From: a virus | Direction: 5' to 3' (one strand) | DNA: 64,000 nt | IMG/VR virus record: IMGVR_UViG_3300029286_000009 | Span: 62,001 to 126,000 of that record | Shown here: one piece after another, positions 3,581-49,216 of the stretch | How positions within the stretch are numbered: position 1 is the stretch's first letter | How the letters are laid out: each line of letters begins with the position of its first letter | Program-made: the position numbers and the translations under genes | Notes under the pieces: generated by a model | Databases searched by the model: none | The model's input: the letters and a program-made list of their open reading frames with translations, nothing else | Told to the model about the DNA's origin: nothing

Positions 3581-3973
3581 ATGACAACATTACAAGTAGA
3601 AAGAAAGCGGGCTAAGGTTAAAGCTGAAGCCCGCAGTAAGGATAAGAAGCTTTGTATTTTTCGTAATAATTTTCCATTAACTAAAAAGGAGATAGAACAA
3701 ATATTAAAAGGAATAACAGACGAAGATGTAGCCCTACTAGCCACTACCCGCCCCGCAGAATTGCGGGGTATTTGTGTCTCTGGATACCACGTAGGTGTGG
3801 GCACTTGTTTGGCTAAAAAGTTGGGGCGACACGGAGTAGAAAAGAGTAATGTGTGTGTAGACTGTAAACATCAGGAAGTACTCAATCAATTGAATTATAT
3901 ACTCAGGTTAAAATATGGAGAAAGATACCGGGCAGGTTGGGTTCAGAAAAGAAAGTCACGGAATATAGAATAA
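3581..3973 (+). CDS. Hypothetical protein with possible zinc-binding cysteines
   Basis: 130 residues from the ATG at 3581; an in-frame GTG at 3539 would overlap the polymerase gene. The N-terminus is Lys/Arg-rich. The C-terminal half has four cysteines (GICVSG, GTC, NVCVDCK) that could hold one zinc, followed by a basic tail. It lies between polA and nrdD in the same orientation, so it is probably co-transcribed with them. I do not recognise the family. The Shine-Dalgarno sequence is weak, leaving the start uncertain. Confidence 0.65.
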   Translation: MTTLQVERKRAKVKAEARSKDKKLCIFRNNFPLTKKEIEQILKGITDEDVALLATTRPAELRGICVSGYHVGVGTCLAKKLGRHGVEKSNVCVDCKHQEVLNQLNYILRLKYGERYRAGWVQKRKSRNIE

Positions 3974-3993
3974 ATAAGATATGGAGGCTTGCT

Positions 3994-6000
3994 ATGGATA
4001 ATGTGAAAGGCTACAATGTAATGCTTTCTTACGAAAGCTCTTTTGTGAACTTGATGAACCGGCTCCAAAAAAAATATCCTGCCGAACTATTTGAGATACA
4101 AGGTATTGCAAATAAACATTTAGATATAAATGCTTTTTCTAAGCAATTTTTTAATCGTAACAATGGAAAGACAAATGTTGCTACTTTGTCTACAGACCCA
4201 AACGCCAACGTGTGTGAGATGACTGTATCACAGTGGGCATATGAGCACGGTAAGGGGATCATGCGTGTTAATGGGTTGTATTTGGTATGGGATTATGTAA
4301 CCAAGTTGTTTTCGCAACGGGCGGCTAATGAGGTTGTGGAGCTAATTATCAATGGAAGTATCTTTGTTAATGACCTCCATCAATACGAGAGGCCCTATTG
4401 CTACGGTTTCGACCTTAACCCCATGGTGTGTGAGGGGCTGAAATTCTTCAAAGGTCCCTTTAAAATTGGTCCACCTAAACGGGCAGACAGTTTTATTGAT
4501 TTGCTTATACAAGGGACAGCATACGTATCAAACCAGATTGCTGGAGCAAATAGTTACCCCACACTGTTTGTTAACTTCGATTGGTTTTTGAGAAACGATT
4601 ATGGGGAGGATTACGCAACACGACTAGAAAATTCCAAGGAAAGTGTATACTATCCGATAACCAACTTATTCCAAAACCTGATTTACAGTTGGGGGTTTCC
4701 TTTTAGAGGTAGCCAAAGTCCATTTGTCAACGTATCAATTCTAGACCGCGGTTTTCTTGAGACACTGTTTGGTACCAATGAATACGGTGGTGCCAAGTAT
4801 GTAAATCCAGACGGCACACCGGTTAATATCGACTCGGTATATAAGCTGCAAAAAGCTTTCTACGAGTATTTTAACAAGATTTTTGGTAAGGAAGGGTTAT
4901 TTACATTTCCTATTGTCACTTTAGCAATCTCAATAGGTACTGATAATAATTACAATGACTCAGAGTTTGTTGAGTGGGTATCAAAGATATATGCGAATAA
5001 GTGTTTAGCTAACATATACATTGGGAAACCCAATAGTTTTAGTTCTTGTTGCCGGATGAAAAACGATTACGAGAAAATAGATAAGTTTAATAAAGAGTAT
5101 CAAAATTCATTCGGGGTGGGTGGCATTAGTATAGGCTCTACGCGAGTCGCCGGTGTTAACCTTCCTAGAATAGCATTTAACATGCGGGCGGATGGGGTTT
5201 CAGATTATAAATCCTACTTACAGGATGCACTAGAGGCGTGCAGTAAAGTGTTAATAGCACACAGAAAGGTTATTGCTAACCATATCGCTGCAGGAGCATT
5301 GCCTTTGTATGATACGGGCTGGATTGATATGGATAGGCAATATTCTACCTTTGGATTTATGGGCAGTTATGAGTTCCTCGATTTACTTGGAATGGATGTC
5401 ACTTCAGAGCAAGGTTCAGACTATCTTGTTGAAGTATTGCAGACCATCAGTGACTTTGCCGATAAGTGTTCAGTAGAGAATAAAATTCCGACTAATATTG
5501 AACAAATACCTGGGGAGAGTATGGCTTCTAGGTTGTGCGAAATTGATAAATTACTTGGGTATAACATTGATTATGATGTGGATTTATATAGCAATCAATA
5601 TATACCTCTAACACAAAATGGTAATATTTATGACCGGTTTAAGGTACAAGGTAAACTAGATCGCTTAACGAGCGGTGGTGCAATACTCCATCTGAATATT
5701 GAAGACGGAAGTAATATTACCCCAAAACAAATGATGAAACTTCTAAATACTGCTAAGGAGACGGGCACAGTTTACTTCGCAGTAAACAGAGTATTTTCTG
5801 AGTGTGAGGCGGGGCATATGACTATCTCCAATAGTGGTAGTTGTAAAGAGTGTGGTGGGGTCGTTATTAAACAAGTAACACGCGTAGTTGGATTCTTTAC
5901 TGCGGTATCTAGTTGGGGTGCTGCTCGCCAAAATGAGTTCAAGCAACGGGTGTTTTATAATAACAAAGGAAAGGCGATTTTTACAGATGCAGATAGTTAA
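3994..6000 (+). CDS. nrdD: Anaerobic (class III) ribonucleoside-triphosphate reductase large subunit
   Basis: 668 residues. Reduces ribonucleotides to deoxyribonucleotides through a glycyl radical. The glycyl-radical loop is RVVGFF at about 629-634, close to the C-terminus, preceded by metal-site cysteines (CEAGH...CKECGG). The paired cysteines in SSCCRM near residue 350 are the active-site candidates. No N-terminal ATP-cone is evident. GGAGG six bases before the ATG at 3994 decides the start over an in-frame upstream codon. The gene overlaps its activase by 14 bases, so the two are translationally coupled. Its presence implies function in an anoxic host cell. Confidence 0.95.
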   Translation: MDNVKGYNVMLSYESSFVNLMNRLQKKYPAELFEIQGIANKHLDINAFSKQFFNRNNGKTNVATLSTDPNANVCEMTVSQWAYEHGKGIMRVNGLYLVWDYVTKLFSQRAANEVVELIINGSIFVNDLHQYERPYCYGFDLNPMVCEGLKFFKGPFKIGPPKRADSFIDLLIQGTAYVSNQIAGANSYPTLFVNFDWFLRNDYGEDYATRLENSKESVYYPITNLFQNLIYSWGFPFRGSQSPFVNVSILDRGFLETLFGTNEYGGAKYVNPDGTPVNIDSVYKLQKAFYEYFNKIFGKEGLFTFPIVTLAISIGTDNNYNDSEFVEWVSKIYANKCLANIYIGKPNSFSSCCRMKNDYEKIDKFNKEYQNSFGVGGISIGSTRVAGVNLPRIAFNMRADGVSDYKSYLQDALEACSKVLIAHRKVIANHIAAGALPLYDTGWIDMDRQYSTFGFMGSYEFLDLLGMDVTSEQGSDYLVEVLQTISDFADKCSVENKIPTNIEQIPGESMASRLCEIDKLLGYNIDYDVDLYSNQYIPLTQNGNIYDRFKVQGKLDRLTSGGAILHLNIEDGSNITPKQMMKLLNTAKETGTVYFAVNRVFSECEAGHMTISNSGSCKECGGVVIKQVTRVVGFFTAVSSWGAARQNEFKQRVFYNNKGKAIFTDADS

Positions 6001-23380: not shown

Positions 23381-25486
23381 ATGGATTACCGAACTATCAA
23401 ATTACCAGATTACGGAATTGACATAGAGATAGGGATAGTTCCTAATAGTGAACTAAGCAGATTTCTGTCCCGTGCTACAGTAAAAAGTGGAGCTATTAGT
23501 AAAGCGGACTGGGAAAAATTTTTACTCAGTTCGCTCATCAAAGAACAAGCAACTATTGAGAAGGTGTTGGCGGCGACAGATAACGAACGTGACCGAACAA
23601 TTTTTAAGCATTCTTTAACCGAATTAATATACAAATTCAACAATCGGCTTGACCCTAAACATATCGTTGTAGCAAACGATACACTGTTACATATTTCTGA
23701 CGCTCTTCGGGGCGGTGTACCTACCAGTATTATTCTTTTGAGTAACCCTGGTTGGTTTGGTTCTGTTGAGGTTAATACATTAGTTGACTCTAAACCTGCC
23801 CGTACTATTGCCGAAGTAGTATGGGAACGAGTAAAACAGGATGAGGATCGCAATTATGTTAAAGAATATGTCCAATTGGTAGATATTGAGGTACCTATTC
23901 TTGAAATTTCCTCTTCCGATATATCGGCTGAAGCTGTAGTTGAGGATTTTGTTGAGCGAAGATGTAATGGAGATATAGCTGGTGCTAGGGCTAGTAGTAG
24001 AATGTGGGCAGCCCATGTGATTACTCTCGTAATACCTGATGCGGATAGTTTTGTTTACGCACTAATTCAGGGTGGTTACATGAACTTATACACAGAAAAT
24101 TTGTTGACAACACAGTTATACTTAGCCACTCTGCGAGTAAATCCAGATTTAGACTGGAATCTGATTGATTGGAGTCATTATGAGGATGGAGTTGTTACTG
24201 AATCGGATGAGTCTTGTGATAAGTGCAAAGGGCAGGATCCAAGGTTACTATCAATAGTAAAGCAAGTAAAAAATCGCGGAAGGGCTAGTCAGTCCTCGCG
24301 AGTAAGTCAAAGTCCCACAAAAAAATTCTCTGAGTTACCCCCAAAAGTTATCCTTGGCATGAAGGAGAAGGTTAAACAGAGAATTGTTGGGCAAGATAAG
24401 GCAGTAGATGCTTTAGTAGATGCTCTTACAGTAGCACGTGTGGGGCTCAGGGGGGACAAAAGACCAGTGGGAAGTTTTCTGCTGGCAGGGACAACTGGTG
24501 TGGGGAAGACAGAACTAGCAAAAGTTATTGCTGATGAGTTAGGTGTTCCTTTACATCGTATAGATTGTTCTGAGTTTCAGCAAGCTCACGAAACGTCTAA
24601 ATTAATTGGTGCCCCGCCGGGGTATGTGGGATTTGAGGATATCAACTCAAAGCAAGGGCATGGGTCTACACCACCAACCACGCTTATGGCTAAGGTAAAA
24701 AAGAAGCCTTTTAGTGTGGTGTTGTTCGATGAGATAGAAAAGGCACACGATGCGATCTTTCATATACTGTTACAAATAATGGATGAGGGGCACGCCACGA
24801 GTGGTAGAGGAGAAACGATCTCTTTTAATCAAGCAATTATACTATTGACTTCTAACATAGGAAGTCATGAAGCAGCAAGAGAAGGAGAGCAGCAAACAAT
24901 CGGTTTTGGCGGGGCTGAGGTAGACAAAGCTTCGCAACGTTTTAAAACTATAAATAAAGCGATTAAGGACAGATTTAGTCCTGAATTTCTGAACAGATTA
25001 TCTGAGGTTATTCAATTTGATGAGCTATCCCCCGAGGTGTGCTGTGGAATTGTAGACATACTACTTAACAAGACTAAGACGAACTTAACAAAAGCACAGA
25101 ACATGGATATGGACTGGGGAGAAGATGTAAAGAAATTTATTGTGGATATTGGGTTTAGTAACGAGTATGGTGCTAGAAGCTTAGAACGCATTATACAGAA
25201 AAATGTAGAGTTACCCTTGGCAGTTTATCTACTTGAGCATAAATATTTGGAAAATAAAGTAGAAGAGCCCACTGAAGATACAGCAAAAAAATTGAACTTT
25301 TTGCCCGCTCAGACCTCTGGGCAAGTCACGATAAGTCTGACGGTAAAAAAAGATGCGATTACATTTACTGAGGCTATAAAAAATGAGAAAAGTAATAATG
25401 ACACCAAAAGACTTTCTAGTGCAAGTAATCCCAATGCCAGAAGGACAACCAGACAAAGTCCTGGTAAAACACCGCGGAACCGATAA
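23381..25486 (+). CDS. ClpA-like AAA+ unfoldase with ClpP-docking IGF tripeptide
   Basis: 701 residues. The first ~300 residues are a domain I do not recognise, with one CDKC pair near 285. Then comes a single AAA+ module like ClpA D2: IVGQDKAVDAL, Walker A AGTTGVGKTE (~368), SKLIGAPPGYVGFE pore loop, Walker B LFDEIEKAH (~447), sensor LTSNIGS, arginine-finger helix FSPEFLNRL (~531) and sensor-2 GARSLERII. IGF at ~506-508, just before the finger helix, sits where ClpA has its ClpP-docking IGL. The last ~35 residues are low complexity. Probable partner: the ClpP-like protein at 45123. Confidence 0.9.
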   Translation: MDYRTIKLPDYGIDIEIGIVPNSELSRFLSRATVKSGAISKADWEKFLLSSLIKEQATIEKVLAATDNERDRTIFKHSLTELIYKFNNRLDPKHIVVANDTLLHISDALRGGVPTSIILLSNPGWFGSVEVNTLVDSKPARTIAEVVWERVKQDEDRNYVKEYVQLVDIEVPILEISSSDISAEAVVEDFVERRCNGDIAGARASSRMWAAHVITLVIPDADSFVYALIQGGYMNLYTENLLTTQLYLATLRVNPDLDWNLIDWSHYEDGVVTESDESCDKCKGQDPRLLSIVKQVKNRGRASQSSRVSQSPTKKFSELPPKVILGMKEKVKQRIVGQDKAVDALVDALTVARVGLRGDKRPVGSFLLAGTTGVGKTELAKVIADELGVPLHRIDCSEFQQAHETSKLIGAPPGYVGFEDINSKQGHGSTPPTTLMAKVKKKPFSVVLFDEIEKAHDAIFHILLQIMDEGHATSGRGETISFNQAIILLTSNIGSHEAAREGEQQTIGFGGAEVDKASQRFKTINKAIKDRFSPEFLNRLSEVIQFDELSPEVCCGIVDILLNKTKTNLTKAQNMDMDWGEDVKKFIVDIGFSNEYGARSLERIIQKNVELPLAVYLLEHKYLENKVEEPTEDTAKKLNFLPAQTSGQVTISLTVKKDAITFTEAIKNEKSNNDTKRLSSASNPNARRTTRQSPGKTPRNR

Positions 25487-26338: not shown

Positions 26339-26776
26339 TTACCCGTCGTAAACACTCCAACAGTGAAGGTTGGGTTTTGGTTTCTTTTTTCCTACCTTTT
26401 CTGCCATCAAAACCATGGCTGAATAGTGGTCAGGAGTAATGTCTGTAAGCACTACGTGGTTATCTATTATGTCGCAAGCTAGACTACCAGCAAAATCTAG
26501 ATATTCATCCCCTTCCCCAAGAACTAAGTTAATACCGGCAGGAAGCAAATCATTTATTAAATATTCCCAGTCATCCATTTCTCTTATGGCGTCGCACACG
26601 TCGGCAGGACGTTCCTCTTCCCAGTACGCATCCAACTCCGTATCAATTGCTTCTTTATTCTGATCATACAAAAGGTTAATTAGTTTATCTAGCCCGCCCC
26701 CAGGTAACATAATACCATATACTATATTGCATGTGGAGCTAGAGTTAGTTACGAAAATATTGCGTGTAAATGTCAT
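26339..26776 (-). CDS. TNSSS-family paralogue 1
   Basis: 145 residues. The N-terminus carries IFVTNSSSTCNIVYGIML (family motif at residues 8-15, then the Y-G found in several members); the body is acidic with a DVCDAIREMDDWEY helix, and the end reads NLHCWSVYDG, a divergent version of the C-terminal Trp motif. Function unknown. Its ATG overlaps the stop of the upstream paralogue by four bases, so translation is coupled. Last complete gene of the - block. Confidence 0.85.
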   Translation of the reverse strand: MTFTRNIFVTNSSSTCNIVYGIMLPGGGLDKLINLLYDQNKEAIDTELDAYWEEERPADVCDAIREMDDWEYLINDLLPAGINLVLGEGDEYLDFAGSLACDIIDNHVVLTDITPDHYSAMVLMAEKVGKKKPKPNLHCWSVYDG

Positions 26777-27087
26777 CCGTTATACCAGCTCTCCTCTATG
26801 TAGTAAATTACCTGCCCTAAATTATGTTCATCTATCCATGCCTGCAAATCTTGAAATTTCTTTTGCAGACAATCTGCGGGCGGAAAAGCAAAGAGTCCAT
26901 CCTTTTGCAGGTGTATTGGTGGGAATCCGATATGTACATAGACAGTGTCCCATCTTCCCCACGTTGCGTACAACCCCTTAGGGAGCGTGTCTTCCAGTTC
27001 ATTAAATCTATTCTCATCGATTTCAATACCGTAAGCAATTACTGATGTACTGCTTGAGTTTGTTATAAATTTAATGCGTTTATACAT
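26773..27087 (-). CDS. TNSSS-family paralogue 2
   Basis: 104 residues. KFITNSSSTSVIAYGIEI at 6-23, then a variable core with DTVYVHIGFPPIHLQKDG and a helical LQKKFQDLQAWIDEH; ends with ESWYNG. The core resembles paralogue 4 (CIGYPGFYLTADG), so these two form a subgroup. The serine codons in the motif (TCA AGC AGT) differ from those of paralogue 1 (TCT AGC TCC). Confidence 0.87.
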   Translation of the reverse strand: MYKRIKFITNSSSTSVIAYGIEIDENRFNELEDTLPKGLYATWGRWDTVYVHIGFPPIHLQKDGLFAFPPADCLQKKFQDLQAWIDEHNLGQVIYYIEESWYNG

Positions 27088-27092
27088 TATTG

Positions 27093-27437
27093 TCAGCCCG
27101 TAGAACAGCTAAAGATCCAGGTGGGCTTTGCTTTTGGTTTGAGATTATACTCTAATAAAACATTTAGGAGAGCAACTTCGTATTTAGCTTTCTCGTAGAC
27201 ATCATCCTCGATAAAAAAGCAGAAGTCTTCATCTGAAAAGTGTTCAATCTTATATATAAGTGCCTTCCCTTTTTTCCCATTTTCGAATGAAACACCATGA
27301 TCCCAAGACCGAGTGTTGAATAGGTTTTCTTGTTGTTCATCACTTAAATGAACTAAATCTTCACTAGTAATTCTGTAGCCCCACCCAATAAATGAGCTAG
27401 AGCTAGAGTTGGTTATGAATTTGTTTCGTCTGTACGT
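27093..27437 (-). CDS. TNSSS-family paralogue 3 with ACG in the start position
   Basis: The frame encodes 114 residues: YRRNKFITNSSSSSFIGWGY at the start, an acidic middle, and KPTWIFSCSTG at the end, so both family signatures are intact. No ATG, GTG or TTG exists at the usual site; ACG stands exactly where paralogues have ATG, with AGGAG six bases upstream. Either ACG initiates translation or a start-loss mutation has silenced the gene. The frame itself is uninterrupted, arguing for recent loss or real ACG use. Confidence 0.75.
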   Translation of the reverse strand, partial: TYRRNKFITNSSSSSFIGWGYRITSEDLVHLSDEQQENLFNTRSWDHGVSFENGKKGKALIYKIEHFSDEDFCFFIEDDVYEKAKYEVALLNVLLEYNLKPKAKPTWIFSCSTG

Positions 27438-28100: not shown

Positions 28101-28550
28101 CTACACCCCGTCACTCACTACGTCAATATGGTCGTTGATTCCTAGTTCAGTGAGCAACTTTTTTAGATTGTGAAACCCTTTCTTTAATTCTTCTGGGTCT
28201 TCCAAGACCACAATACCATCAGCTGTTAAGTAAAAACCAGGATAACCTATGCACATATAGAATAAATCGTAAGGTGGGCATTCAAGATAAACTCCCTCAG
28301 GCAAACAGGTCCCCAGTGCACCAAGAATCCCACTAAGCTCCCGCAGGATATAGCTCTCGGGGTCTTTCAAAAAGTTTTCCTTATTTGCTCTCCCGTAGTT
28401 TCTGTTGTATCTATCTAGTAGTTCTTCAGCGGGGCAAGATTTAACCAAATGTTTAAAAATAGACTCTGCTCGATCTCGGTGTAGTGAAACCCCAACAGCA
28501 ATAAACGATGTTGAACTTGAATTTGTTATGAATGTGTGGCAGTAGAACAT
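28101..28550 (-). CDS. TNSSS-family paralogue 4
   Basis: 149 residues. HTFITNSSSTSFIAVGVSL near the N-terminus; the core shares the [HC]IG[FY]P...L..DG segment with paralogue 2 and continues with EELKKGFHNLKKLLTELG; the end is charged and lacks the Trp motif. The ATG overlaps the upstream paralogue's stop by one base. Confidence 0.87.
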   Translation of the reverse strand: MFYCHTFITNSSSTSFIAVGVSLHRDRAESIFKHLVKSCPAEELLDRYNRNYGRANKENFLKDPESYILRELSGILGALGTCLPEGVYLECPPYDLFYMCIGYPGFYLTADGIVVLEDPEELKKGFHNLKKLLTELGINDHIDVVSDGV

Positions 28551-29062
28551 TATAATCCATACCCCTCAACCCACCATTTCGCAGAGCCTTTTGGTAGTTC
28601 AAACATATCACAGAATTCATCTATATATTTTTGTACCTCTTCTGGACTCATTTCGTAAGGGTCAAATCCTTCTGGTTCCCAATCACACGATCTACACAGG
28701 ACATAGAAGATCATGTAATAATCATCCGGATCATGCCGATCTAAGTCGCAAGTAGTAATTTTAACAGGTGTTTTAACATATGTCCTTTCTATACCGTTAT
28801 CATTCCATCCAATTCTACTCTCAGGATGTTTCTTTTCGTACTCTTTTTGGTATAGCCACATAATAAACTCTCTAAGGTCATTCAAATCGTTGAGTTGCTC
28901 TTTTGCCCAGCTATGACTGGCTTTGTAGGTATCCTTGTGTTGTTCGTAGAGTAGACGTATTCGGTCGTAAATTCCATCCAACTCTGGTTGGCGGTATAGA
29001 TTACCAAAACATACAAAAGCAGTTGTTGAACTATTAGTGATGTATTTAGAACGAATAAACAT
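28550..29062 (-). CDS. TNSSS-family paralogue 5 (TNSSTT variant)
   Basis: 170 residues. SKYITNSSTTAFVCFGNLY: the third Ser is replaced by Thr. The long acidic body includes MIFYVLCRSCDWEPEGFDP; the end is SAKWWVEGYGL, retaining tryptophans near the C-terminus. It overlaps both neighbours by one base, so this is a tightly packed operon. Confidence 0.85.
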   Translation of the reverse strand: MFIRSKYITNSSTTAFVCFGNLYRQPELDGIYDRIRLLYEQHKDTYKASHSWAKEQLNDLNDLREFIMWLYQKEYEKKHPESRIGWNDNGIERTYVKTPVKITTCDLDRHDPDDYYMIFYVLCRSCDWEPEGFDPYEMSPEEVQKYIDEFCDMFELPKGSAKWWVEGYGL

Positions 29063-29268
29063 CAGTCTATCTTTTTAACCTCGAATGCCCAATCCTGATT
29101 CCACGCATCATCTTTAGCAGTTTCCATATCTTTGTTACCGATGAACTCGGCATAGTCGGGGTATGCTGCAACAAAAGCATGCTTCCAGTGTGCTGAACCT
29201 ATTTCAACAATTTTAATTTGAAGGTCGTTGTCAAAAAAGTTAATAAATGCAACAGCAAATTTGTTCAT
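29062..29268 (-). CDS. Small hypothetical protein within the TNSSS array
   Basis: 68 residues from MNKFAVAFINFFDN; GGAGAGA precedes the ATG at 29268. It has an aromatic, alpha/beta-like pattern and no TNSSS motif (HAFVAAYPDYAEFIG). I do not recognise it. It overlaps the upstream paralogue by four bases. Confidence 0.65.
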   Translation of the reverse strand: MNKFAVAFINFFDNDLQIKIVEIGSAHWKHAFVAAYPDYAEFIGNKDMETAKDDAWNQDWAFEVKKID

Positions 29269-29645
29269 GATTCTCTCCAAGTAAACCAACTTGGTTTTTG
29301 TGGTGCAATTCCAAGTTTTTTACACGCTGCTTCTATAATGTCGTCCCACCCAGGCATTACTGTTGGGATTACATATGAATTATACCCGTAGGGGATTATA
29401 AATTGAGAGTGTTTAATATACATAATAGCAGTCTCCTCATCCCCAGAAAGGTATACAGGACACTTATCCCATGACAAGTTGCTTTTATCGTGATAAAAGT
29501 CTTCCCAATACAACGTGTCCCCGAATTCATCTACTAGGGGTTCGCTGTTCTCGTCCAGAGGGGAGACAGAGGGTAATTGTATTCCATAGGCAATAAGAGA
29601 TGTTGAAGAACTATTGGTAATAAATTTTGCACGATGGTAGGTCAT
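29265..29645 (-). CDS. TNSSS-family paralogue 6
   Basis: 126 residues from the ATG at 29645, which forms ATGA with the upstream stop and follows AAGGGGG. AKFITNSSSTSLIAYGIQLP at the start and KPSWFTWRES at the end. The body contains YWEDFYHD and IIEAACKKLGI, clearly alignable with paralogue 13 (YWEDYYEE, TIKDACRVLGV), so these two are close relatives although 6 kb apart. Confidence 0.88.
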   Translation of the reverse strand: MTYHRAKFITNSSSTSLIAYGIQLPSVSPLDENSEPLVDEFGDTLYWEDFYHDKSNLSWDKCPVYLSGDEETAIMYIKHSQFIIPYGYNSYVIPTVMPGWDDIIEAACKKLGIAPQKPSWFTWRES

Positions 29646-30001
29646 GAAGGCCCCCTTGTAAAGAACCACCCAGGGGATAGTCCGTCTAGGTTAATATTTA
29701 GTTCCTTAGCAAACTTGCGTAGAGCAATTTTTGATTCAGGCGTAACTCTATAAGAAATGCTATCCAGATGTAATGTGTAATTGCCACAGTTTTCAGTGTT
29801 TTCATAGCTGCGATCAACGTATAGAAGAATATTACCAGTATGGTCAGGGGTACCCCTGACGCCACTGTTGCCCTCATATAACAAATCGTAGAGGTCATCA
29901 GTTTTCTCTTTGACGAAAGGGGGCATATTAGGTACAATATAGCCCCACGCTATGAACGAAGTTGAACTTGAGTTCGTTACGTATGCTTTCCTTGTAAACA
30001 C
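29642..30001 (-). CDS. TNSSS-family paralogue 7
   Basis: 119 residues from a GTG at 30001, one base after the upstream stop, with GGAG seven bases upstream. KAYVTNSSSTSFIAWGYIVP at the start; LSPGWFFTRGPS at the end gives the P-x-W motif. GNILLYVDRSYE resembles segments of paralogues 6 and 8. Codon choice in the motif is TCA AGT TCA ACT. Confidence 0.86.
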   Translation of the reverse strand: MFTRKAYVTNSSSTSFIAWGYIVPNMPPFVKEKTDDLYDLLYEGNSGVRGTPDHTGNILLYVDRSYENTENCGNYTLHLDSISYRVTPESKIALRKFAKELNINLDGLSPGWFFTRGPS

Positions 30002-30002
30002 T

Positions 30003-30422
30003 CTAACGCTCCACATTAATAGCAATAGACCACTCGGGACACACATAATGCGGTATGTCATTCGCATCACAAAATCTTCTCAGTTGTTTAGCCATACCTA
30101 GTTCTTGTTCTCTTGTATAACCCATCAATTCCCGCAACTTTGACATAGGAAGAGGCATTACTCCGCCCTCCCACAAGCTTAGATATGAGTCTTGGTGGTA
30201 TATGATGGTGCGTTCGGAATCCCACATAGGATGTACAGCTATGGCGGGGTAACTTTTGTGGGCTATTTCTCCCAGCTTTTCTCCAGCTTTGTAGCTTAAC
30301 TCAGTTTCAAACCCGTAGAAAATAAAACTGGTGGAAGAAGAGTTAGTTATGAATGCCCGTCTAATAAAGTATTTATTAGCACTGGAATGAGTAGTGCCCA
30401 GAGTCTTCGTTACCGTATTCAA
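30003..30422 (-). CDS. TNSSS-family paralogue 8
   Basis: 139 residues from a TTG with GGAGG six bases upstream. This start adds about 20 residues before the usual position (IRRAFITNSSSTSFIFYG); at the usual position there is no start codon, only TAC. The end reads VCPEWSIAINVER, the P-x-W motif. The start region overlaps the upstream paralogue by 47 bases. The start is the least certain of the family. Confidence 0.8.
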   Translation of the reverse strand: MNTVTKTLGTTHSSANKYFIRRAFITNSSSTSFIFYGFETELSYKAGEKLGEIAHKSYPAIAVHPMWDSERTIIYHQDSYLSLWEGGVMPLPMSKLRELMGYTREQELGMAKQLRRFCDANDIPHYVCPEWSIAINVER

Positions 30423-30720
30423 ATTCGTCCTCCTTAAAATGTCCTAGGTATTCTATACAATAGAAAACCGCGTATCCTTTAAGTAATTTATCTGTTATGA
30501 CTGCCATTGCTTTGTTGTCCAGATACCTGTCAAGGGGGTCAGTTTCAACCACTAGTGGCATCTCGCAATGGGGGCAACGAAAACCTTCGCCACCTTTGTA
30601 CTGAGTCATCTCGTCCTCGTCAGGATATCTGCTAGGGTCTCTCTCCCACACAATCATACAGGATGAAGATGAATTTGTGACATACTTAGGTCGGTAGTAT
30701 ATTATGTATTTAAGTTGCAT
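30376..30720 (-). CDS. TNSSS-family paralogue 9 with internal zinc site
   Basis: 114 residues from the ATG at 30720 (GGAG six bases upstream). PKYVTNSSSSCMIVWERD at the start, then FRCPHCEMPLVV, a CxxC half-site not seen in other members. It lacks the C-terminal P-x-W motif, ending GHYSFQC. So the family N-terminus is attached to different bodies. Confidence 0.85.
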   Translation of the reverse strand: MQLKYIIYYRPKYVTNSSSSCMIVWERDPSRYPDEDEMTQYKGGEGFRCPHCEMPLVVETDPLDRYLDNKAMAVITDKLLKGYAVFYCIEYLGHFKEDEFEYGNEDSGHYSFQC

Positions 30721-31133
30721 GCAATTCTCCATCCTGGATCGGGGTTGTCAAAACGGTCGGGAGTTATACCATATTTGTGGCAGAATTCTATTATTTGAAG
30801 AGCCCACAGTCTTTTCGTAGAACTACATTTTCTCATATGCGTAAGCGGAAGTGCCTGTATACCACTTGTTGGTAAATAGTATCTTGATGCAGCAGCATAA
30901 ACAGCCCCTTCGATGTAGCCACCCTCCATCAGCATTACACTTATTGGTCCTTTTATATTTTCAGACCAATCAAATACAGCATTGTACACTTGCTGCTCAT
31001 CCATTAGCCCGATTTTTTCAGGTAGAATAATAGCTTGAGACATGGTGGCAAAGGAGTCATCAGAGAAGGTTATTCCAAAGAAGAGAAAGCTAGTTGATGA
31101 CGAATTCGTTATAAACGATCTTCTAACAAACAT
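30702..31133 (-). CDS. TNSSS-family paralogue 10
   Basis: 143 residues. MFVRRSFITNSSSTSFLFFG is the cleanest example of the N-terminal segment, starting at the ATG with AAAAGGA upstream. The end is PDPGWRIACNLNT (P-x-W). The middle has GPISVMLMEGGYIEGAVY and a helical ALQIIEFCHKYGITPD related to paralogue 8. Confidence 0.88.
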   Translation of the reverse strand: MFVRRSFITNSSSTSFLFFGITFSDDSFATMSQAIILPEKIGLMDEQQVYNAVFDWSENIKGPISVMLMEGGYIEGAVYAAASRYYLPTSGIQALPLTHMRKCSSTKRLWALQIIEFCHKYGITPDRFDNPDPGWRIACNLNT

Positions 31134-31245: not shown

Positions 31246-31476
31246 TTAATCGTTCCACGCGATTTCTTCGTCAGCTTTTCTCTTTTCGTATGAGTCAATT
31301 GTTTTACACAATTTGAAAGCAGCTGATTTTAGCTCGGACAGGTCCGCTTCGTTCACATCCACCCATTGATTCTCAAGGTAGGAGGACGCATCCTTTATGG
31401 CACCAGCTACATCTGAGAGCAAAAACGCAGTGGAACTCGAGTTGGTTACATACTTCGTTCGGATATACCGGTTCAT
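31246..31476 (-). CDS. TNSSS-family paralogue 11 (short)
   Basis: 76 residues from the ATG at 31476 (AGGA upstream). YIRTKYVTNSSSTAFLLSDV at the start followed by an alpha-helical, charged remainder (LSELKSAAFKLCKTIDSYEK). Resembles paralogue 12, which is also short and helical. No C-terminal Trp motif. Confidence 0.82.
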   Translation of the reverse strand: MNRYIRTKYVTNSSSTAFLLSDVAGAIKDASSYLENQWVDVNEADLSELKSAAFKLCKTIDSYEKRKADEEIAWND

Positions 31477-34519: not shown

Positions 34520-34789
34520 TTAGCCTTCCAGTTCGTTCACTTCGTAATCGTCTATGTATACTTCCGGCTTAAACACTAGTCCGCATCTCGGGCATCTAGT
34601 TGTATCTGGTTTGTCATTGTCACAGTAGATTCCATAAAGTTCTGGGTCAACTCCGTATGTACGTTTGATATAATTGTAGGGGTGCTCGGGGTGGTTCGAG
34701 TCCAGGCAGTCTCTGTTGTAAAGCATTCCTCCGGATTTCCACCACACAGGTATATCTATTTCTAGGGGTGGCACTTTGGTAATAGTCAT
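34520..34789 (-). CDS. Small hypothetical protein with CxxC
   Basis: 89 residues. A single TRCPRCGLVFKPEV half-site near residue 66; other cysteines (DC, YCD) could complete a zinc site. The N-terminal segment is Pro/Trp-rich. Overlaps the upstream TNSSS gene by four bases. Confidence 0.68.
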   Translation of the reverse strand: MTITKVPPLEIDIPVWWKSGGMLYNRDCLDSNHPEHPYNYIKRTYGVDPELYGIYCDNDKPDTTRCPRCGLVFKPEVYIDDYEVNELEG

Positions 34790-35055
34790 GGTGACAAACC
34801 CCCAGTGTTTCTCTTGAAGAGTAGTTTAACATAATCCTCTACACATAGTTGCTTGTGTTTATCGTAACCTTCAACAGCTGCTTGTATCTCTGCCGCTAGT
34901 TCATACAATTGGGGAAGCATATCTTGCCCTTCTCTATCCTCAAAATAGGCAGCACTAAGCAGGAGTTGGTGGGCGTTTTGTAGGTCGGCAATTGCTTCGT
35001 GAATCAAGTGCATACTCGAACTTGAGTTTGTTACGTATCTTGCTCGTGCGAACAT
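34786..35055 (-). CDS. TNSSS-family paralogue 12 (short)
   Basis: 89 residues. MFARARYVTNSSSSMHLIHE: the segment after the serines departs from the usual F-[IV]. The rest is helical (AIADLQNAHQLLLSAAYFED). It resembles paralogue 11 in size and helix content. The start is two bases after the end of paralogue 13. Confidence 0.83.
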   Translation of the reverse strand: MFARARYVTNSSSSMHLIHEAIADLQNAHQLLLSAAYFEDREGQDMLPQLYELAAEIQAAVEGYDKHKQLCVEDYVKLLFKRNTGGLSP

Positions 35056-35057
35056 TG

Positions 35058-35444
35058 CTATCCCTCATATCCTGTGTACCAGCCCAACCATGTGGGCTTC
35101 TGGTTTTCTACCCCTAAGACTCTGCAGGCGTCCTTAATTGTTTTATCCCAGTTTTCCTTAACACCAAGCTTAAGTTCAACACACCCATACTCAATATCTT
35201 GCCTGGATTTACTGACTACCATTACAGCGGCGTCCGACTCAGCCGCAATCCAAAATTCTACTTTAATGTCGCCGTAAGGTATTCCAGACAACTCCTCATA
35301 ATAATCTTCCCAGTATATCCTGTTACCGTTTTCATCACGTAGTTGTTCCTCGGAATCATCTGTAGGATATCCTGAGAGGGTTATCCCATAAGCAATAAAA
35401 GCAGTTGAGGAACTATTTGTTATAAATTTACGTCGTGTATACAT
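35058..35444 (-). CDS. TNSSS-family paralogue 13
   Basis: 128 residues. MYTRRKFITNSSSTAFIAYG at the start, KPTWLGWYTGYEG at the end; YWEDYYEELSG and ACRVLGVENQ align with paralogue 6. Motif codons are AGT TCC TCA ACT, a different Ser codon pattern from the other members, so conservation acts on the protein. Confidence 0.89.
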   Translation of the reverse strand: MYTRRKFITNSSSTAFIAYGITLSGYPTDDSEEQLRDENGNRIYWEDYYEELSGIPYGDIKVEFWIAAESDAAVMVVSKSRQDIEYGCVELKLGVKENWDKTIKDACRVLGVENQKPTWLGWYTGYEG

Positions 35445-38178: not shown

Positions 38179-38601
38179 TTACTCATAAGAGATGTAGAAC
38201 CAACCAGGTCCCACTAAGATGCATGCATTTCTTTCATTTAAGGCCGCTTGTAGTTCACGATACCAAGCAGAATAGGTTGCACCATCACGGGGTGCGTTCA
38301 CATGCCATGTCATATCAGTTACAGTTTTTGCTCTCCACTGGTCGTCTTCACGAATTAATTCTTGCGATAAGATGCGGGTGTTTCCGTCGATAGTATAATT
38401 GTAGCACTCTTCGAAGGAATCTGTGTGCCCCACAAAGAATAGCCCACCACCCCTACTCTCCTTGAACAGATTACCTTCAGTAGTGTTACACATAATTTCT
38501 AGTTTATCTAGCCCGTCATACGTAGCTTTGTCTACTAATACTCCCCACGCGACAAACCCCGTTGAGGAGGAGTTAGTTATAAATGCGTATCTCTTGAACA
38601 T
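38179..38601 (-). CDS. TNSSS-family paralogue 14
   Basis: 140 residues from the ATG at 38601 (AGGA six bases upstream). KRYAFITNSSSTGFVAWGVL at the start; VGPGWFYISYE at the end. GLFFVGHTDSFEE in the middle resembles the segment GNILLYVDRSYE of paralogue 7. Separated from the main array, next to the phosphoesterase. Confidence 0.86.
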   Translation of the reverse strand: MFKRYAFITNSSSTGFVAWGVLVDKATYDGLDKLEIMCNTTEGNLFKESRGGGLFFVGHTDSFEECYNYTIDGNTRILSQELIREDDQWRAKTVTDMTWHVNAPRDGATYSAWYRELQAALNERNACILVGPGWFYISYE

Positions 38602-43509: not shown

Positions 43510-44055
43510 TCAGTGGTGTGACGTCTTAGTCACAAACTCCTGTGTGCCTCTACACACATAGGTCTTATTCGTAATCATATCCATAGCGGCCCACTTCCCA
43601 GGATTATCATCACTCGAGGTGCGATGAAAAACATAGTAACCCATTTTGAGTAGGTTCTGATACGTTTGCCAAAGGTCGTAAACATCATCCATTCTGTCCC
43701 ATGCAGCACACGTATCCTGGTAGAATTTTGCCATTTCGCTGTCTCCGCCGTCTATTCTAGCAACAGCATCCGGGATTATCTGCTCGAGGTCTGATATAAT
43801 TTCATCTATGCAGTCAGCGTTGACATAGGCATCACTCCTATGTATGTCCTTCTTTTCCTCCTCATCGGGCATCAGCATTTCTGCCAACTCCGTCAGGGTT
43901 ATAGAGAAATTGGAACCACCATAGGAAGAACCGTCCCAGAAAAAATCTGACATGCCAACTTTCGCCAAGAACGCTTTTGTTATGATAGGACTTCTGGTCA
44001 CTACTACAAAACTGGAACCCGAAGAGTTGGTTATGAATCCAGGTCTACAAAGCAT
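43510..44055 (-). CDS. TNSSS-family paralogue 15, next to radical-SAM gene
   Basis: 181 residues, the longest member. PGFITNSSGSSFVVVTRSPI: the third Ser is Gly here. The acidic body (DYFW-like SDFFWDGSSYGGSNFS, KKDIHRSDAYVNADCIDE) is not similar to other members; the end KWAAMDMITNKTYVCRGTQE has no P-x-W motif. Only six bases separate it from the upstream radical-SAM gene, so the two are co-expressed. This is the most distant TNSSS copy. Confidence 0.8.
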   Translation of the reverse strand: MLCRPGFITNSSGSSFVVVTRSPIITKAFLAKVGMSDFFWDGSSYGGSNFSITLTELAEMLMPDEEEKKDIHRSDAYVNADCIDEIISDLEQIIPDAVARIDGGDSEMAKFYQDTCAAWDRMDDVYDLWQTYQNLLKMGYYVFHRTSSDDNPGKWAAMDMITNKTYVCRGTQEFVTKTSHH

Positions 44056-44061
44056 TTTTTG

Positions 44062-45126
44062 TTACACAGTCCTTTCTTTTTTCTCACACGGATTGATTGC
44101 TGGTAACACTGCACACCCCCGGCATATCTCTCGGCTAGTACAGTCGGGGCACGCATTTATTACTTTATTGCGGTAATCATCAAATTTGTTTAGCCAAATG
44201 TCACTGAATGTTGTGTCCTCCAATGAGAAGATATCGGTTTTGTTGAAACTGCAGGGAGATACTTTCAGCTCTTCGTCAATGAAGACTGAAAAGCATCCGG
44301 AGTCGCAGGGACCCAAGTTGTCAACAGGCAAATTCTCAATCGGGGTAGATGCTATCAATGATGGAGCAGCACAACTATCAACACCCAGTGCAATTTTACC
44401 TTCGTAAGCACGCAGGGCGGAGACAAAGTTCATCTTTTGTACGAATGTGGGATGCTGCTCCCAATTCCCTCGACCGATAGGCTTGTGCATGAGAAAAATA
44501 CAGCTATAGAGGGGCAACTTTCCTCCTAGCATACCTTTGCCCACTTTCGCCAGCCTGAGTTGTGTAGTCCATGAGTCGATTAAATCATGAGTCAATACTA
44601 CATGTATTGCAGTAGCCACACCGCCTGTCATCAGTTTGAGAATAGCGGGCAGGGGGTTGATACCGGGGTGCATCGATACAGCTACGGCACCACAATACTT
44701 CCTACTTGCCTCAATGATTTCGGGTGTGAGGTCAACACCATTAGTGGTCCATGACGGAACCACCCCCTTGTCCCGTGCGATACGTAGTAGCTCGGGGAAT
44801 TCGGGGTGGTGTTGCGGACTTCCTCCCCCAATAGCTACTTGACAAACCCATGGGGTTAGAGTATCAATGGCGTTACTAAAGTCACTCACAGACATATGTT
44901 GCTTCTTATCCGCTGCACTTTCACGGTAGCAGTAAGCACAATTGAGTGGGCAGTACTTAGTGATATGGATATCTGCCAATTCAGGACCATTAGGGGACCA
45001 CTCGGGGCGCACGTGTTGTTCGTTGCCGTCTGCACCTACCAGAACTGTTTCGTGTCGTTCAAAATACCCTGTTTCCGGGTCAAATTTGGCAATATAATCT
45101 CCATGGTCGTATATCTGTAGGCTCAT
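44062..45126 (-). CDS. Radical SAM enzyme with SPASM-like C-terminal cysteines
   Basis: 354 residues. CPLNCAYC (C59, C63, C66) is the SAM 4Fe-4S motif; GGGSPQHHPEF is the GGxP-type SAM contact. The C-terminal region holds GPCDSGC, VSPCSF and CPDCTSREICRGC, i.e. at least seven more cysteines typical of SPASM/twitch auxiliary Fe-S clusters of peptide-modifying or sactipeptide/anSME-type enzymes. Likely modifies a peptide or protein. TNSSS paralogue 15 follows and the ClpP-like gene precedes it (four-base overlap). Confidence 0.9.
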   Translation of the reverse strand: MSLQIYDHGDYIAKFDPETGYFERHETVLVGADGNEQHVRPEWSPNGPELADIHITKYCPLNCAYCYRESAADKKQHMSVSDFSNAIDTLTPWVCQVAIGGGSPQHHPEFPELLRIARDKGVVPSWTTNGVDLTPEIIEASRKYCGAVAVSMHPGINPLPAILKLMTGGVATAIHVVLTHDLIDSWTTQLRLAKVGKGMLGGKLPLYSCIFLMHKPIGRGNWEQHPTFVQKMNFVSALRAYEGKIALGVDSCAAPSLIASTPIENLPVDNLGPCDSGCFSVFIDEELKVSPCSFNKTDIFSLEDTTFSDIWLNKFDDYRNKVINACPDCTSREICRGCAVLPAINPCEKKERTV

Positions 45127-45833
45127 CGACTTTCCTTTCTTTGATCGGGTTTCTTCTTTGATTTCTTAATCGGTTTAGATTTATCGCCGTAGCCAGAGTA
45201 AACTACTGCTGGAGCCGCTTTCCTGTCTGTAGTAATCACATCTACTACGCCATACGCAAGACACTCTTCTGGAGTAAGCCAAAGGTCTGTGTCTTGTAAA
45301 AGATACTTCCTTATGTCCGCCTCTGTCTTCAAATTAGTATGCTGTGAGTAGTGCCTAATCTGTATCTCATACATAATGTCTTGCCCACGCCGTGTAGCTA
45401 CCAATTGGGGGTAGTTCCCATAGTCGAATCCGCTAAAGTTATGGCTTAGAAATTGTGTACGAGGCGTACATATTCTGTGTCCCTTCTCTCCCGCCATCAT
45501 AACTATGAATCCGCCTGATGCACAAATACCATTTGCAAAAGTGTGCACAGGAATAGTAGACCAATCCATAAAGTCAACAATACCCAATGTGGCGGCGGCA
45601 TCTCCGCCGTAGGAGTTTATAATCATGTTGATTTCGTCAAAAGTTTCCCACTGGGCATTCCACTTCACGATCTTTTCGACAAAGTCGTGATAGTTTTCGT
45701 GGTCGATCTCGTCAATGAGAAGAAATATTCCCTGTTCTTCTAAAGTTGTCAGTTTCTTTTCTTCCGGCATACTGCCTGTTAGCACGTGCCCAACATGTGT
45801 TCCCTTTAAGATTGGTATCATTCTTGGAGCCAT
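45123..45833 (-). CDS. ClpP-like serine protease
   Basis: 236 residues. INSYGGDAAATLGIVDFM, then GICASGGF with nucleophile Ser106, FLSHNF with His131, and DTDLWLTPEECLAYGVVD with Asp183 supply a complete ClpP-type triad in order. An N-terminal ~30 residues and a basic Lys-rich C-terminus extend the core. The window also encodes a ClpA-like unfoldase with an IGF docking motif (23381), so a phage Clp protease is possible; phage ClpP-like proteins can also serve in capsid maturation. Confidence 0.9.
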   Translation of the reverse strand: MAPRMIPILKGTHVGHVLTGSMPEEKKLTTLEEQGIFLLIDEIDHENYHDFVEKIVKWNAQWETFDEINMIINSYGGDAAATLGIVDFMDWSTIPVHTFANGICASGGFIVMMAGEKGHRICTPRTQFLSHNFSGFDYGNYPQLVATRRGQDIMYEIQIRHYSQHTNLKTEADIRKYLLQDTDLWLTPEECLAYGVVDVITTDRKAAPAVVYSGYGDKSKPIKKSKKKPDQRKESR

Positions 45834-46973: not shown

Positions 46974-47891
46974 TCATAAAGCAAGTTTTATACGTCCGTA
47001 ATCCCCCAAGTAATCATCTTTGTCATCGTAATCAAAGTCATCTGTATAGTCAGAAGAATCATTGCTTTTTCGTCTACGGTCTAGGGGTGTTTCGTCGTGC
47101 TCATTATAGTATTGGCGTCCGATAGTGTCTTCTTCTCGTTCCCACCATGGGTCTCTATTGCTCTTGCGTATGCCACTCCACTTACCTGGAGCAGACCATG
47201 TAGCTGCCCCGCTTAAGGTGCGTGGCTCAGGAGTGTGAGTAAACTTTGTTTCAGAAAATGCATCAAAGAACGATTTCAATTTTCTGAGTTGCCCAGCTAA
47301 TTCTAGCATGGATGCACAGCACTTGTTGGTGTGCTGGAAGTGGTAGCCTATACCCATATTGAACGCGGACGTTTGCATAGGCTCCATATAACTGATATCA
47401 GAGAAGGAACCTAAGCTAAGCTTGAACTCGGCTGCTTTCAAAGCGTCTACAAAGTCAGTGTTAGTATCGTAATCATACAGAACTACATCAGAGCCTTTTC
47501 TATCAAGCCCAACTATCCAATTGTAGTCCTTGCCACAGTAGTCTACGAATTCCTCTGCAGTAGAGGAGCACCGCTCTTCATCAGTGGTAAAGAGTAAATC
47601 CATTTCTAAACCAAATTGTTTCAGAAGGTGTGTCATAGTGAATACCCCTAGGCGGTCATCAAGAGCGGGACTGAATACCATAATATCATCAGGAGTGCTG
47701 AAGGAGTCAAAGCTTGAGGACTCGGAGACCACATCCATGTGGGCCACTGCGAGTACCGTTGCACCAGAGGTCTCTCTGTAGAGAAAATGTTCACGGTTTT
47801 CGAGGTCTGGAATTACACTAAGTAAGAACCGCCTAACTTTCTTTTCTTTCATAGTGCATAGTTTACGTAGAGCGGCGATATCAACTTTCAT
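46974..47891 (-). CDS. Zinc metallopeptidase-like protein (M20/M28/M42 superfamily)
   Basis: 305 residues from the ATG at 47891. AHMDVV (H51-x-D53), ALDDRLGV (D79), TTDEERCS (E105/E106) and a later GLDRKGSD (D130) give the co-catalytic metal ligands and general base of MH-clan exopeptidases; YHFQHTN may supply the last His. The tail (~240-305) is low-complexity with WWEREE and Asp-rich runs. Start and upstream stop overlap as ATGA. Confidence 0.78.
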   Translation of the reverse strand: MKVDIAALRKLCTMKEKKVRRFLLSVIPDLENREHFLYRETSGATVLAVAHMDVVSESSSFDSFSTPDDIMVFSPALDDRLGVFTMTHLLKQFGLEMDLLFTTDEERCSSTAEEFVDYCGKDYNWIVGLDRKGSDVVLYDYDTNTDFVDALKAAEFKLSLGSFSDISYMEPMQTSAFNMGIGYHFQHTNKCCASMLELAGQLRKLKSFFDAFSETKFTHTPEPRTLSGAATWSAPGKWSGIRKSNRDPWWEREEDTIGRQYYNEHDETPLDRRRKSNDSSDYTDDFDYDDKDDYLGDYGRIKLAL

Positions 47892-49216
47892 GCTACTTTC
47901 TCTCTTTCGGCCCGACACACGGAACAATCATCATGACCATCATTTTTGGAAACTACCCCACATTTAACGCAAATTGTGTACTCTTGATCAAGACAAACCG
48001 GGCACACGTAGTAACCTTTGCCAACTTTAGTCAAGACACCTGCGAGGCAACCTTTGCCACATGCGTCACACTGTAGAGCATGCCCCTCACAGCACTCACC
48101 ACAAAGCCATAGTTCTTCACGATCTTTGCCCATAACGGGGACTAAACGATCTACATCATCCCAGCCACTACAGAAATCGCAGTGTGTGGCGAACCCATCA
48201 AAGCAACTGTGGCACCAAACTTCGCCCTTAACAGTGTGGCAATTCTCTCTGTCAGCATAACCGGGGCATCGTTGGCATTTGGTGAATCTTTGGGTAAAGC
48301 AATCTTCGCAGAATGGGTCCTCAGATTCCTCGTGCTCATAATAGGCGTCGTTCTCCCGAATCAGCCTCCCGCATTCATAGCACGCAATCTGCCCATCTTC
48401 GCACTCTCCACATACAATTATGTCGTCGCCGTGCCATACAGCAGTATGTGGATGACTACGTCCACATTTGGTGCACGTAATGCGATACTTAAAATCTACA
48501 GCTTCGCAATCAGACACTTCCTGTGCTCCTACTATATACCCACGCCCATTGTTTATCCACAGGGCACCTTCGATGTCATCCATGTAGGACACATCAACGT
48601 TACGGTAGTATGAGCGGTTGAATATGTCAGAAAATATTCTGGCAAACGATACAATGTTCAGGTGTTCCCCCGAGCCACTGTAGACGTTGAATATAACGTG
48701 TGCTTCTTCAATAAATTTTGGATCATTGTATGGAATGCACCAAGCACGTGCCTTGGGATCATTGTTAGCTCCGTGTATTAGGAGGGCTTTGCCACCTAGT
48801 TTAGATATAATATAACGTGCCGCAGATCGGCAAGTCCAAAAACATGAGTCATGGTCACCATAGTCGCCTGGTTTCCAATCGAAATCAGATGTAACTATCA
48901 ATTGGTTATTCGAAACAGTTATACAAGATTCACGAGCAACCTTGCCTACTTTAGAAAGGAGATCGTTGGATGCTTTGTACCCATTTTTCTTTAATACTTT
49001 AGCAAATCGCTTGGGCCAGTTACCCAGCTTATTGGTCCACTCAGAGCCAATCTCGGTCATCATGCAGTATAGGACATTTCTGGTAGGAGTACATTCTTCT
49101 GACCCCCTAAGAACATCTATAATAGTTTCAATTGCACAATTGGATATTTCTTTAATTGACTTAATTGGGTATTTTCCGTCTTCAAACAAAAGTGCTCTCC
49201 TATTTTGATAGCTCAA
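47888..49216 (-). CDS. Cysteine-rich zinc-finger protein
   Basis: 442 residues. The N-terminal 220 residues have no motif I recognise. The C-terminal half is packed with CxxC pairs (CTKCGR, CGECEDGQIACYECGR, CEDCF, CQRCPG, CHSCF, CDFCSGW, CGECCEG, CDACGKGC, CPVCLD, CVKCGV, CSVCR), about ten zinc-binding half-sites in a LIM/rubredoxin-like series. May be a scaffold binding several partners. It precedes the peptidase gene by ATGA overlap. Confidence 0.8.
   Translation of the reverse strand: MSYQNRRALLFEDGKYPIKSIKEISNCAIETIIDVLRGSEECTPTRNVLYCMMTEIGSEWTNKLGNWPKRFAKVLKKNGYKASNDLLSKVGKVARESCITVSNNQLIVTSDFDWKPGDYGDHDSCFWTCRSAARYIISKLGGKALLIHGANNDPKARAWCIPYNDPKFIEEAHVIFNVYSGSGEHLNIVSFARIFSDIFNRSYYRNVDVSYMDDIEGALWINNGRGYIVGAQEVSDCEAVDFKYRITCTKCGRSHPHTAVWHGDDIIVCGECEDGQIACYECGRLIRENDAYYEHEESEDPFCEDCFTQRFTKCQRCPGYADRENCHTVKGEVWCHSCFDGFATHCDFCSGWDDVDRLVPVMGKDREELWLCGECCEGHALQCDACGKGCLAGVLTKVGKGYYVCPVCLDQEYTICVKCGVVSKNDGHDDCSVCRAEREKVA

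Follow-up and report, generated by a model that had tools for sequence, protein, structure and literature searches.

Does the DNA between positions 43,510 and 45,833 of the window encode a complete pathway for the maturation of phage proteins, or do only some of its genes belong together? The window is the whole 64,000-nucleotide stretch analyzed, corresponding to positions 62,001-126,000 of a 259,732-bp viral record; coordinates below refer to the window unless stated otherwise. Three genes stand in a row on its minus strand: a ClpP-like gene; a radical-SAM gene, which overlaps it by 4 bp; and, after a 6-bp gap, a gene whose product carries an N-terminal TNSSS segment. This arrangement, recognized in an earlier sequence-only reading, had led to the proposal that the enzyme and the protease together process the N-termini of 15 TNSSS paralogues. 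The three genes are as follows:

45123..45833, minus strand: ClpP-like serine protease, 236 aa (PF00574, 2.6e-25; catalytic triad kept)
44062..45126, minus strand: radical-SAM enzyme, 354 aa (PF04055, 1e-13; CX3CX2C at 59-66; SPASM/twitch-like C-terminal cysteines)
43510..44055, minus strand: enzyme-adjacent motif protein beginning with MLCRPGFITNSSGSSFVVV, 181 aa

A search with the pattern TWYRTNACNAAYWSNWSN located exactly 15 in-frame copies of the motif, the number given by the sequence-only reading, all within 17.3 kb (88,739-106,037 of the record) and all on the minus strand. The rest of the 259,732-bp record contained no further copy; one extra match to TWYRTNACNAAYWSNWSN does not encode the motif. 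Besides the enzyme-adjacent gene, the motif genes are:

26339..26776, minus strand: motif protein FVTNSSSTC
26773..27087, minus strand: motif protein FITNSSSTS
27093..27437, minus strand: motif protein FITNSSSSS; no canonical start, ACG six codons ahead of the motif, preceded by AGGAG
28101..28550, minus strand: motif protein FITNSSSTS
28550..29062, minus strand: motif protein YITNSSTTA
29265..29645, minus strand: motif protein FITNSSSTS; start is the ATG seven codons upstream of the motif
29642..30001, minus strand: motif protein YVTNSSSTS; starts with GTG, six codons ahead of the motif
30003..30422, minus strand: motif protein FITNSSSTS; start uncertain
30376..30732, minus strand: motif protein YVTNSSSSC
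30702..31133, minus strand: motif protein FITNSSSTS
31246..31476, minus strand: motif protein YVTNSSSTA; start is the ATG eight codons upstream of the motif
34786..35055, minus strand: motif protein YVTNSSSSM
35058..35444, minus strand: motif protein FITNSSSTA
38179..38601, minus strand: motif protein FITNSSSTG

Four of these genes (27093-27437, 29642-30001, 30003-30422 and 30376-30732) lack an ATG about six codons before the motif. Its place is taken by one GTG, one ACG behind AGGAG, one ATA and one unclear codon, and these genes may use unusual start codons.

The 15 proteins, described earlier as paralogues, are not clearly so, since similarity beyond the motif could be detected in just 2 of 105 pairs. 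The same is seen on a larger scale: among all within-genome pairs of motif proteins compared, 8 of 531 were similar outside the motif. In 399 non-redundant motif proteins, the consensus, located at the N-terminus, is roughly R-x-x-[F/Y]-[V/I/A]-[S/T]-N-S-S-S-x-x-[F/S]; the asparagine and two serines (N-S-S) are invariant and conservation stops about a dozen residues past the start of the motif core, the position frequencies being partly shaped by the search pattern. The proteins are mostly about 70-270 aa long and reach 717 aa. None of the 93 searched matched Pfam, and their PHROGs matches were to families of unknown function only. Bodies that are unlike one another and unmatched in Pfam, with conservation confined to the N-terminal motif, argue that the motif is a portable N-terminal module, as judged from sequence comparison. 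The largest cargo observed is a 717-aa protein of Fusibacter tunisiensis that starts with the motif (L188, 7418 downward, and L232); it contains a zinc-protease-like sequence, YHELVHVIE, and its gene lies directly after a radical-SAM gene. A search for the motif string in open-access literature, outside which an earlier description is possible, returned no relevant paper.

The product of 44062..45126 belongs to the radical-SAM superfamily by sequence and by fold: it carries CPLNCAYC at residues 59-66, as had been noticed, scores 52.2 bits against PF04055 (cut-off 29.5) and matches the TIM-barrel fold. At least seven further C-terminal cysteines had been claimed, and nine are present beyond residue 250 (252, 274, 278, 292, 326, 329, 335, 338 and 347). 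The SPASM profile PF13186 had no match in the phage record; its cut-off was exceeded by bacterial relatives, e.g., that of locus L184 (34.1 bits). In the window enzyme, C274 and C292 are separated by 17 residues without the SPASM glycine and the downstream cysteines are arranged as CX2CX5CX2C, the SPASM spacing being CX9-15GX4C followed by CX2CX5CX3C. The L184 enzyme has the canonical spacing, and in a class of enzymes fused to the motif (see below) the SPASM cysteines are lost.

An AF2 model of the window enzyme (pLDDT 89) was compared with solved structures using Foldseek. The best neighbour was SuiB (1.6e-13, TM-score 0.66), and the neighbours also included SkfB, BlsE, CteB, viperin, PqqE, anSME and EpeE; SkfB was also matched by sequence-profile comparison (3.9e-10). 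Judged from this model, the neighbours are mostly peptide-modifying enzymes, with BlsE and viperin acting on small molecules, and are not the tRNA enzymes that the sequence-only reading had named as an outcome speaking against it. NCBIfam models match the enzyme family with scores far under their cut-offs; identity with prokaryotic viperin (NF038283) was rejected on this basis (44.8 bits against a curated cut-off of 180).

Relatives of the enzyme were gathered in IMG/VR with an alignment query, and from Vibrio phage D479; the alignment query was needed, as the window enzyme used as a single sequence matched nothing in the viral contigs. In a phylogenetic tree, enzymes of phage arrays, fused enzymes and bacterial enzymes formed one group (support 99/96) apart from a small outgroup of ten other SPASM proteins from the same bacterial genomes, and the window enzyme grouped with the bacterial enzymes. 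Bit scores against the family separate the same sets: unfused members score at least 208, fused or split ones 108-156 and other SPASM proteins below 50. The motif-linked radical-SAM enzymes thus appear to be one clade, a putative family that is undescribed. Five phage relatives (L367, L372, L373, L375 and L385) contain in-frame TAA or TAG, a hint that in these phages stop codons are recoded or the genes are damaged.

Co-occurrence of this enzyme with TNSSS proteins in other genomes had been named as a check, and we found the two linked in both search directions. When 84,980 species genomes were searched with the motif DNA pattern alone, 35 bacterial or archaeal stretches were retrieved, 26 of which carry the enzyme family within the same stretch of at most 8 kb, on the strand of the motif wherever both could be placed. 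The other nine genomes comprise four with a strong enzyme match (immediately next door in two), two with a partial match and three with a weak match or none; two Lokiarchaeota and one Zixiibacteria assembly, all incomplete, have the motif without a strong enzyme match. Conversely, the enzyme alignment alone yielded 12 matches at E <1e-50 in 392 genomes of one order; eleven of them adjoin a motif gene and the twelfth ends at a contig end.

Among phages, the enzyme was found locally in 38 of 120 motif stretches. In 20 of 26 further large phage records without a local enzyme, it was present elsewhere in the record (E <1e-60), compared with none of 23 large control records that were picked by a PhoH P-loop pattern and that also lack the motif (Fisher p 1.6e-8). 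The enzyme gene and its nearest motif gene share their orientation in 79 of 80 pairs. At 19 IMG/VR loci and in Vibrio phage D479, an array of two to nine motif genes is found close to the enzyme gene, mostly directly downstream. RB43-like phages of E. coli and Klebsiella have the enzyme and two motif proteins encoded about 20 kb apart; the motif proteins were found in 174 and 175 records and the enzyme in 174, with nearly equal host-genus counts, and about 174 RB43-like phages have both. In E. coli phage Lw1, the enzyme is gp161 and the motif proteins are gp111 and gp116.

In the fused class, which includes at least 18 non-redundant proteins (e.g., Salmonella phage Arash gp146), the motif is located at the N-terminus of the enzyme itself and has invariant R, G, A, N, S, S, S, H and S. 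These enzymes form a clade with 100/100 support, and a split version is present in L054. Thus, the enzyme family and the tagged small proteins occur in many giant phages and some bacteria, nearly always together, and there is strong support for the TNSSS segment belonging with the radical-SAM enzyme.

Close homologues in motif-less genomes, which the sequence-only reading had regarded as contrary evidence, turned out to be rare, yet they do exist: one huge-phage lineage (LR756500, L015 and L020) has the enzyme, no motif was found in it, and it is a true exception. Two other apparent cases, L023 and L054, were dismissed because variant motif genes (ITNSSSELF and GFATNSSSYHS) lie right behind their enzyme genes.

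The portability of the motif and its position at the extreme N-terminus resemble a targeting signal. It could accordingly be imagined that the motif directs sorting, packaging or processing by some other machine and that the association with the radical-SAM gene reflects only shared neighbourhoods. We find this extremely improbable, as the linkage runs both ways in bacteria and archaea as well as in several groups of phages, is kept in RB43-like phages despite the distance between the genes and extends to gene fusion.

The position of the third gene is different. The product of 45123..45833 is a ClpP-like protease (PF00574, 89.8 bits) whose Ser-His-Asp residues, described earlier as intact, correspond to Ser106, His131 and Asp183 in an alignment with the solved ClpP 6hwm. 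The overlap with the enzyme gene and the intact triad would suit a protease that trims the modified N-terminus, the three genes making up a full maturation pathway, and in L012, the nearest viral relative by score, a ClpP-like gene lies 1.7 kb upstream. Against this, among about 60 related radical-SAM genes a ClpP-like gene lies within 10 kb of only 4 (L012, L045, L002 and L020) and abuts none; there was no ClpP-like match near the bacterial enzyme-motif pairs examined, and most ClpP-like proteins of phages serve in head maturation or as general proteases. The ClpP-like gene was therefore rejected as a general partner. Its participation in maturation, as originally proposed, is very unlikely, and it is probably an unrelated neighbour. 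The phage encodes a second protease, an ATP-dependent Lon-like one, at 23381-25486 (PHROG 4871, 1e-98), and a peptidase-like protein with weak M42/M20 similarity at 46974-47927 (PHROG 4191, 6.9e-11), about 1 kb upstream of the ClpP-like gene.

From the family, the motif, the linkage, the fusions, the dissimilar bodies and the fold, all obtained by computation, we infer that the motif is a substrate, where it is modified and to what effect. We consider it likely that the two genes represent a two-part protein-modification system, in which a SPASM/twitch-type radical-SAM enzyme modifies the N-terminal motif of otherwise unrelated small proteins; the tag itself is probably the enzyme's chemical target. 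The enzyme would recognize the short segment conforming to the consensus above and use a 5′-deoxyadenosyl radical to modify a residue of the N-S-S core, a single enzyme serving all 15 motif proteins of the window phage. Against this reading, the motif is disordered in a model of a fused protein, with no docking in the active site visible. The product would most likely be an internal cross-link or an oxidized serine. Thioether and streptide-type links are unlikely, as neither Cys nor Lys nor Trp is conserved in the core, and some fused proteins lack the initial aromatic residue, which argues against a cross-link requiring it; serine oxidation, epimerization or another cross-link may be considered. 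As a guess, the phage motif proteins could be host-takeover or counter-defence factors that need the tagged N-terminus for activity.

Alternatively, the motif might be a docking or regulatory segment and its carriers partners of an enzyme that acts on something else, such as a viperin-like nucleotide or another protein. Viperin structures are found among the fold neighbours, the viperin and pVip models match weakly, some bacterial copies adjoin Avs-like genes and, in fused proteins, the motif sits in the N-terminal domain of the enzyme itself. We nevertheless regard this alternative as unlikely: up to 15 unrelated motif proteins per enzyme fit substrates better than subunits, the viperin score is far under its cut-off and the C-terminal region of bacterial members is a SPASM domain.

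Modification of the motif by the enzyme can be compared with several known systems. The RiPP maturases SuiB and SkfB, the closest to the window enzyme in fold and sequence profile, have as substrates ribosomally made peptides whose genes adjoin their own; here, in contrast, the candidate substrates are whole proteins with unrelated bodies and a common N-terminal motif. That motif has neither the Cys of sactipeptides nor the Lys-Trp pair of streptide, and identity with a sactipeptide or ranthipeptide maturase was rejected because there is no conserved Cys for thioether bonds. The structural neighbour anSME targets a Ser or Cys that lies within a short motif of a folded protein. The sulfatase signature it modifies is C/S-x-P/A-x-R, from which the TNSSS motif differs, and no sulfatase was seen.

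The nearest published idea comes from NTPase-based conflict systems, in which a SPASM-type radical-SAM gene is predicted to modify an FxSxx peptide effector (Kaur et al. 2020, PMC7159879). The parallel of radical-SAM/SPASM enzyme, peptide and NTPase extends to our bacterial loci, as about 16 of the 35 bacterial stretches encode, in this order, a STAND-type NTPase, a small protein of ~140 aa, a motif protein and the radical-SAM enzyme (STAND cassettes are present in L182, L184, L186, L187, L189, L191, L194-L196, L200-L202, L205, L209, L212, L213 and L215). Identity with the FxSxx/FxsB system was nonetheless rejected: the partner motif is an N-terminal TNSSS segment, the NTPase is an Avs-like STAND protein instead of a VMAP/vWA ternary system, and most members are in phages.

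The cassette NTPases match Avs2 models, and a neighbouring MBL gene, found in L184, L196 and L209, matches Avs1a and LmuA; the L184 copy is next to a STAND NTPase that weakly matches trypsin. This recalls AVAST type 1, which has a gated MBL nuclease and a trypsin-fused Avs (PMC12799240), to which the bacterial loci add the small protein, the motif protein and the radical-SAM gene; the word "radical" does not occur in the main text of that paper. The bacterial pairs L414-L424 have no STAND/Avs-type neighbours. From its defence-like gene neighbourhood, the STAND cassette looks like a candidate defence system. The small protein of L194 and L212 is similar to the motif protein but lacks the motif.

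A broader reading, which we offer tentatively, is that of an undescribed post-translational tagging system, in which one modification on the N-terminal motif of many unrelated proteins would be used both by giant phages, on arrays of rapidly changing accessory proteins, and by bacteria, on a partner of Avs-like STAND sensors. If true, the two sides of the phage-host conflict may share one chemistry. The proposal assigns a concrete, testable function to a large set of proteins, from phages and bacteria, that are unmatched in Pfam, connects a radical-SAM enzyme with STAND-type gene neighbourhoods resembling anti-phage defence, and predicts a new radical-SAM protein modification site that can be checked in phage Lw1.

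The window also encodes, at 3937-6000, the large subunit of an anaerobic ribonucleotide reductase (PHROG 25611, 8e-84), which suggests an anaerobic host and fits a host environment suiting an oxygen-sensitive enzyme.
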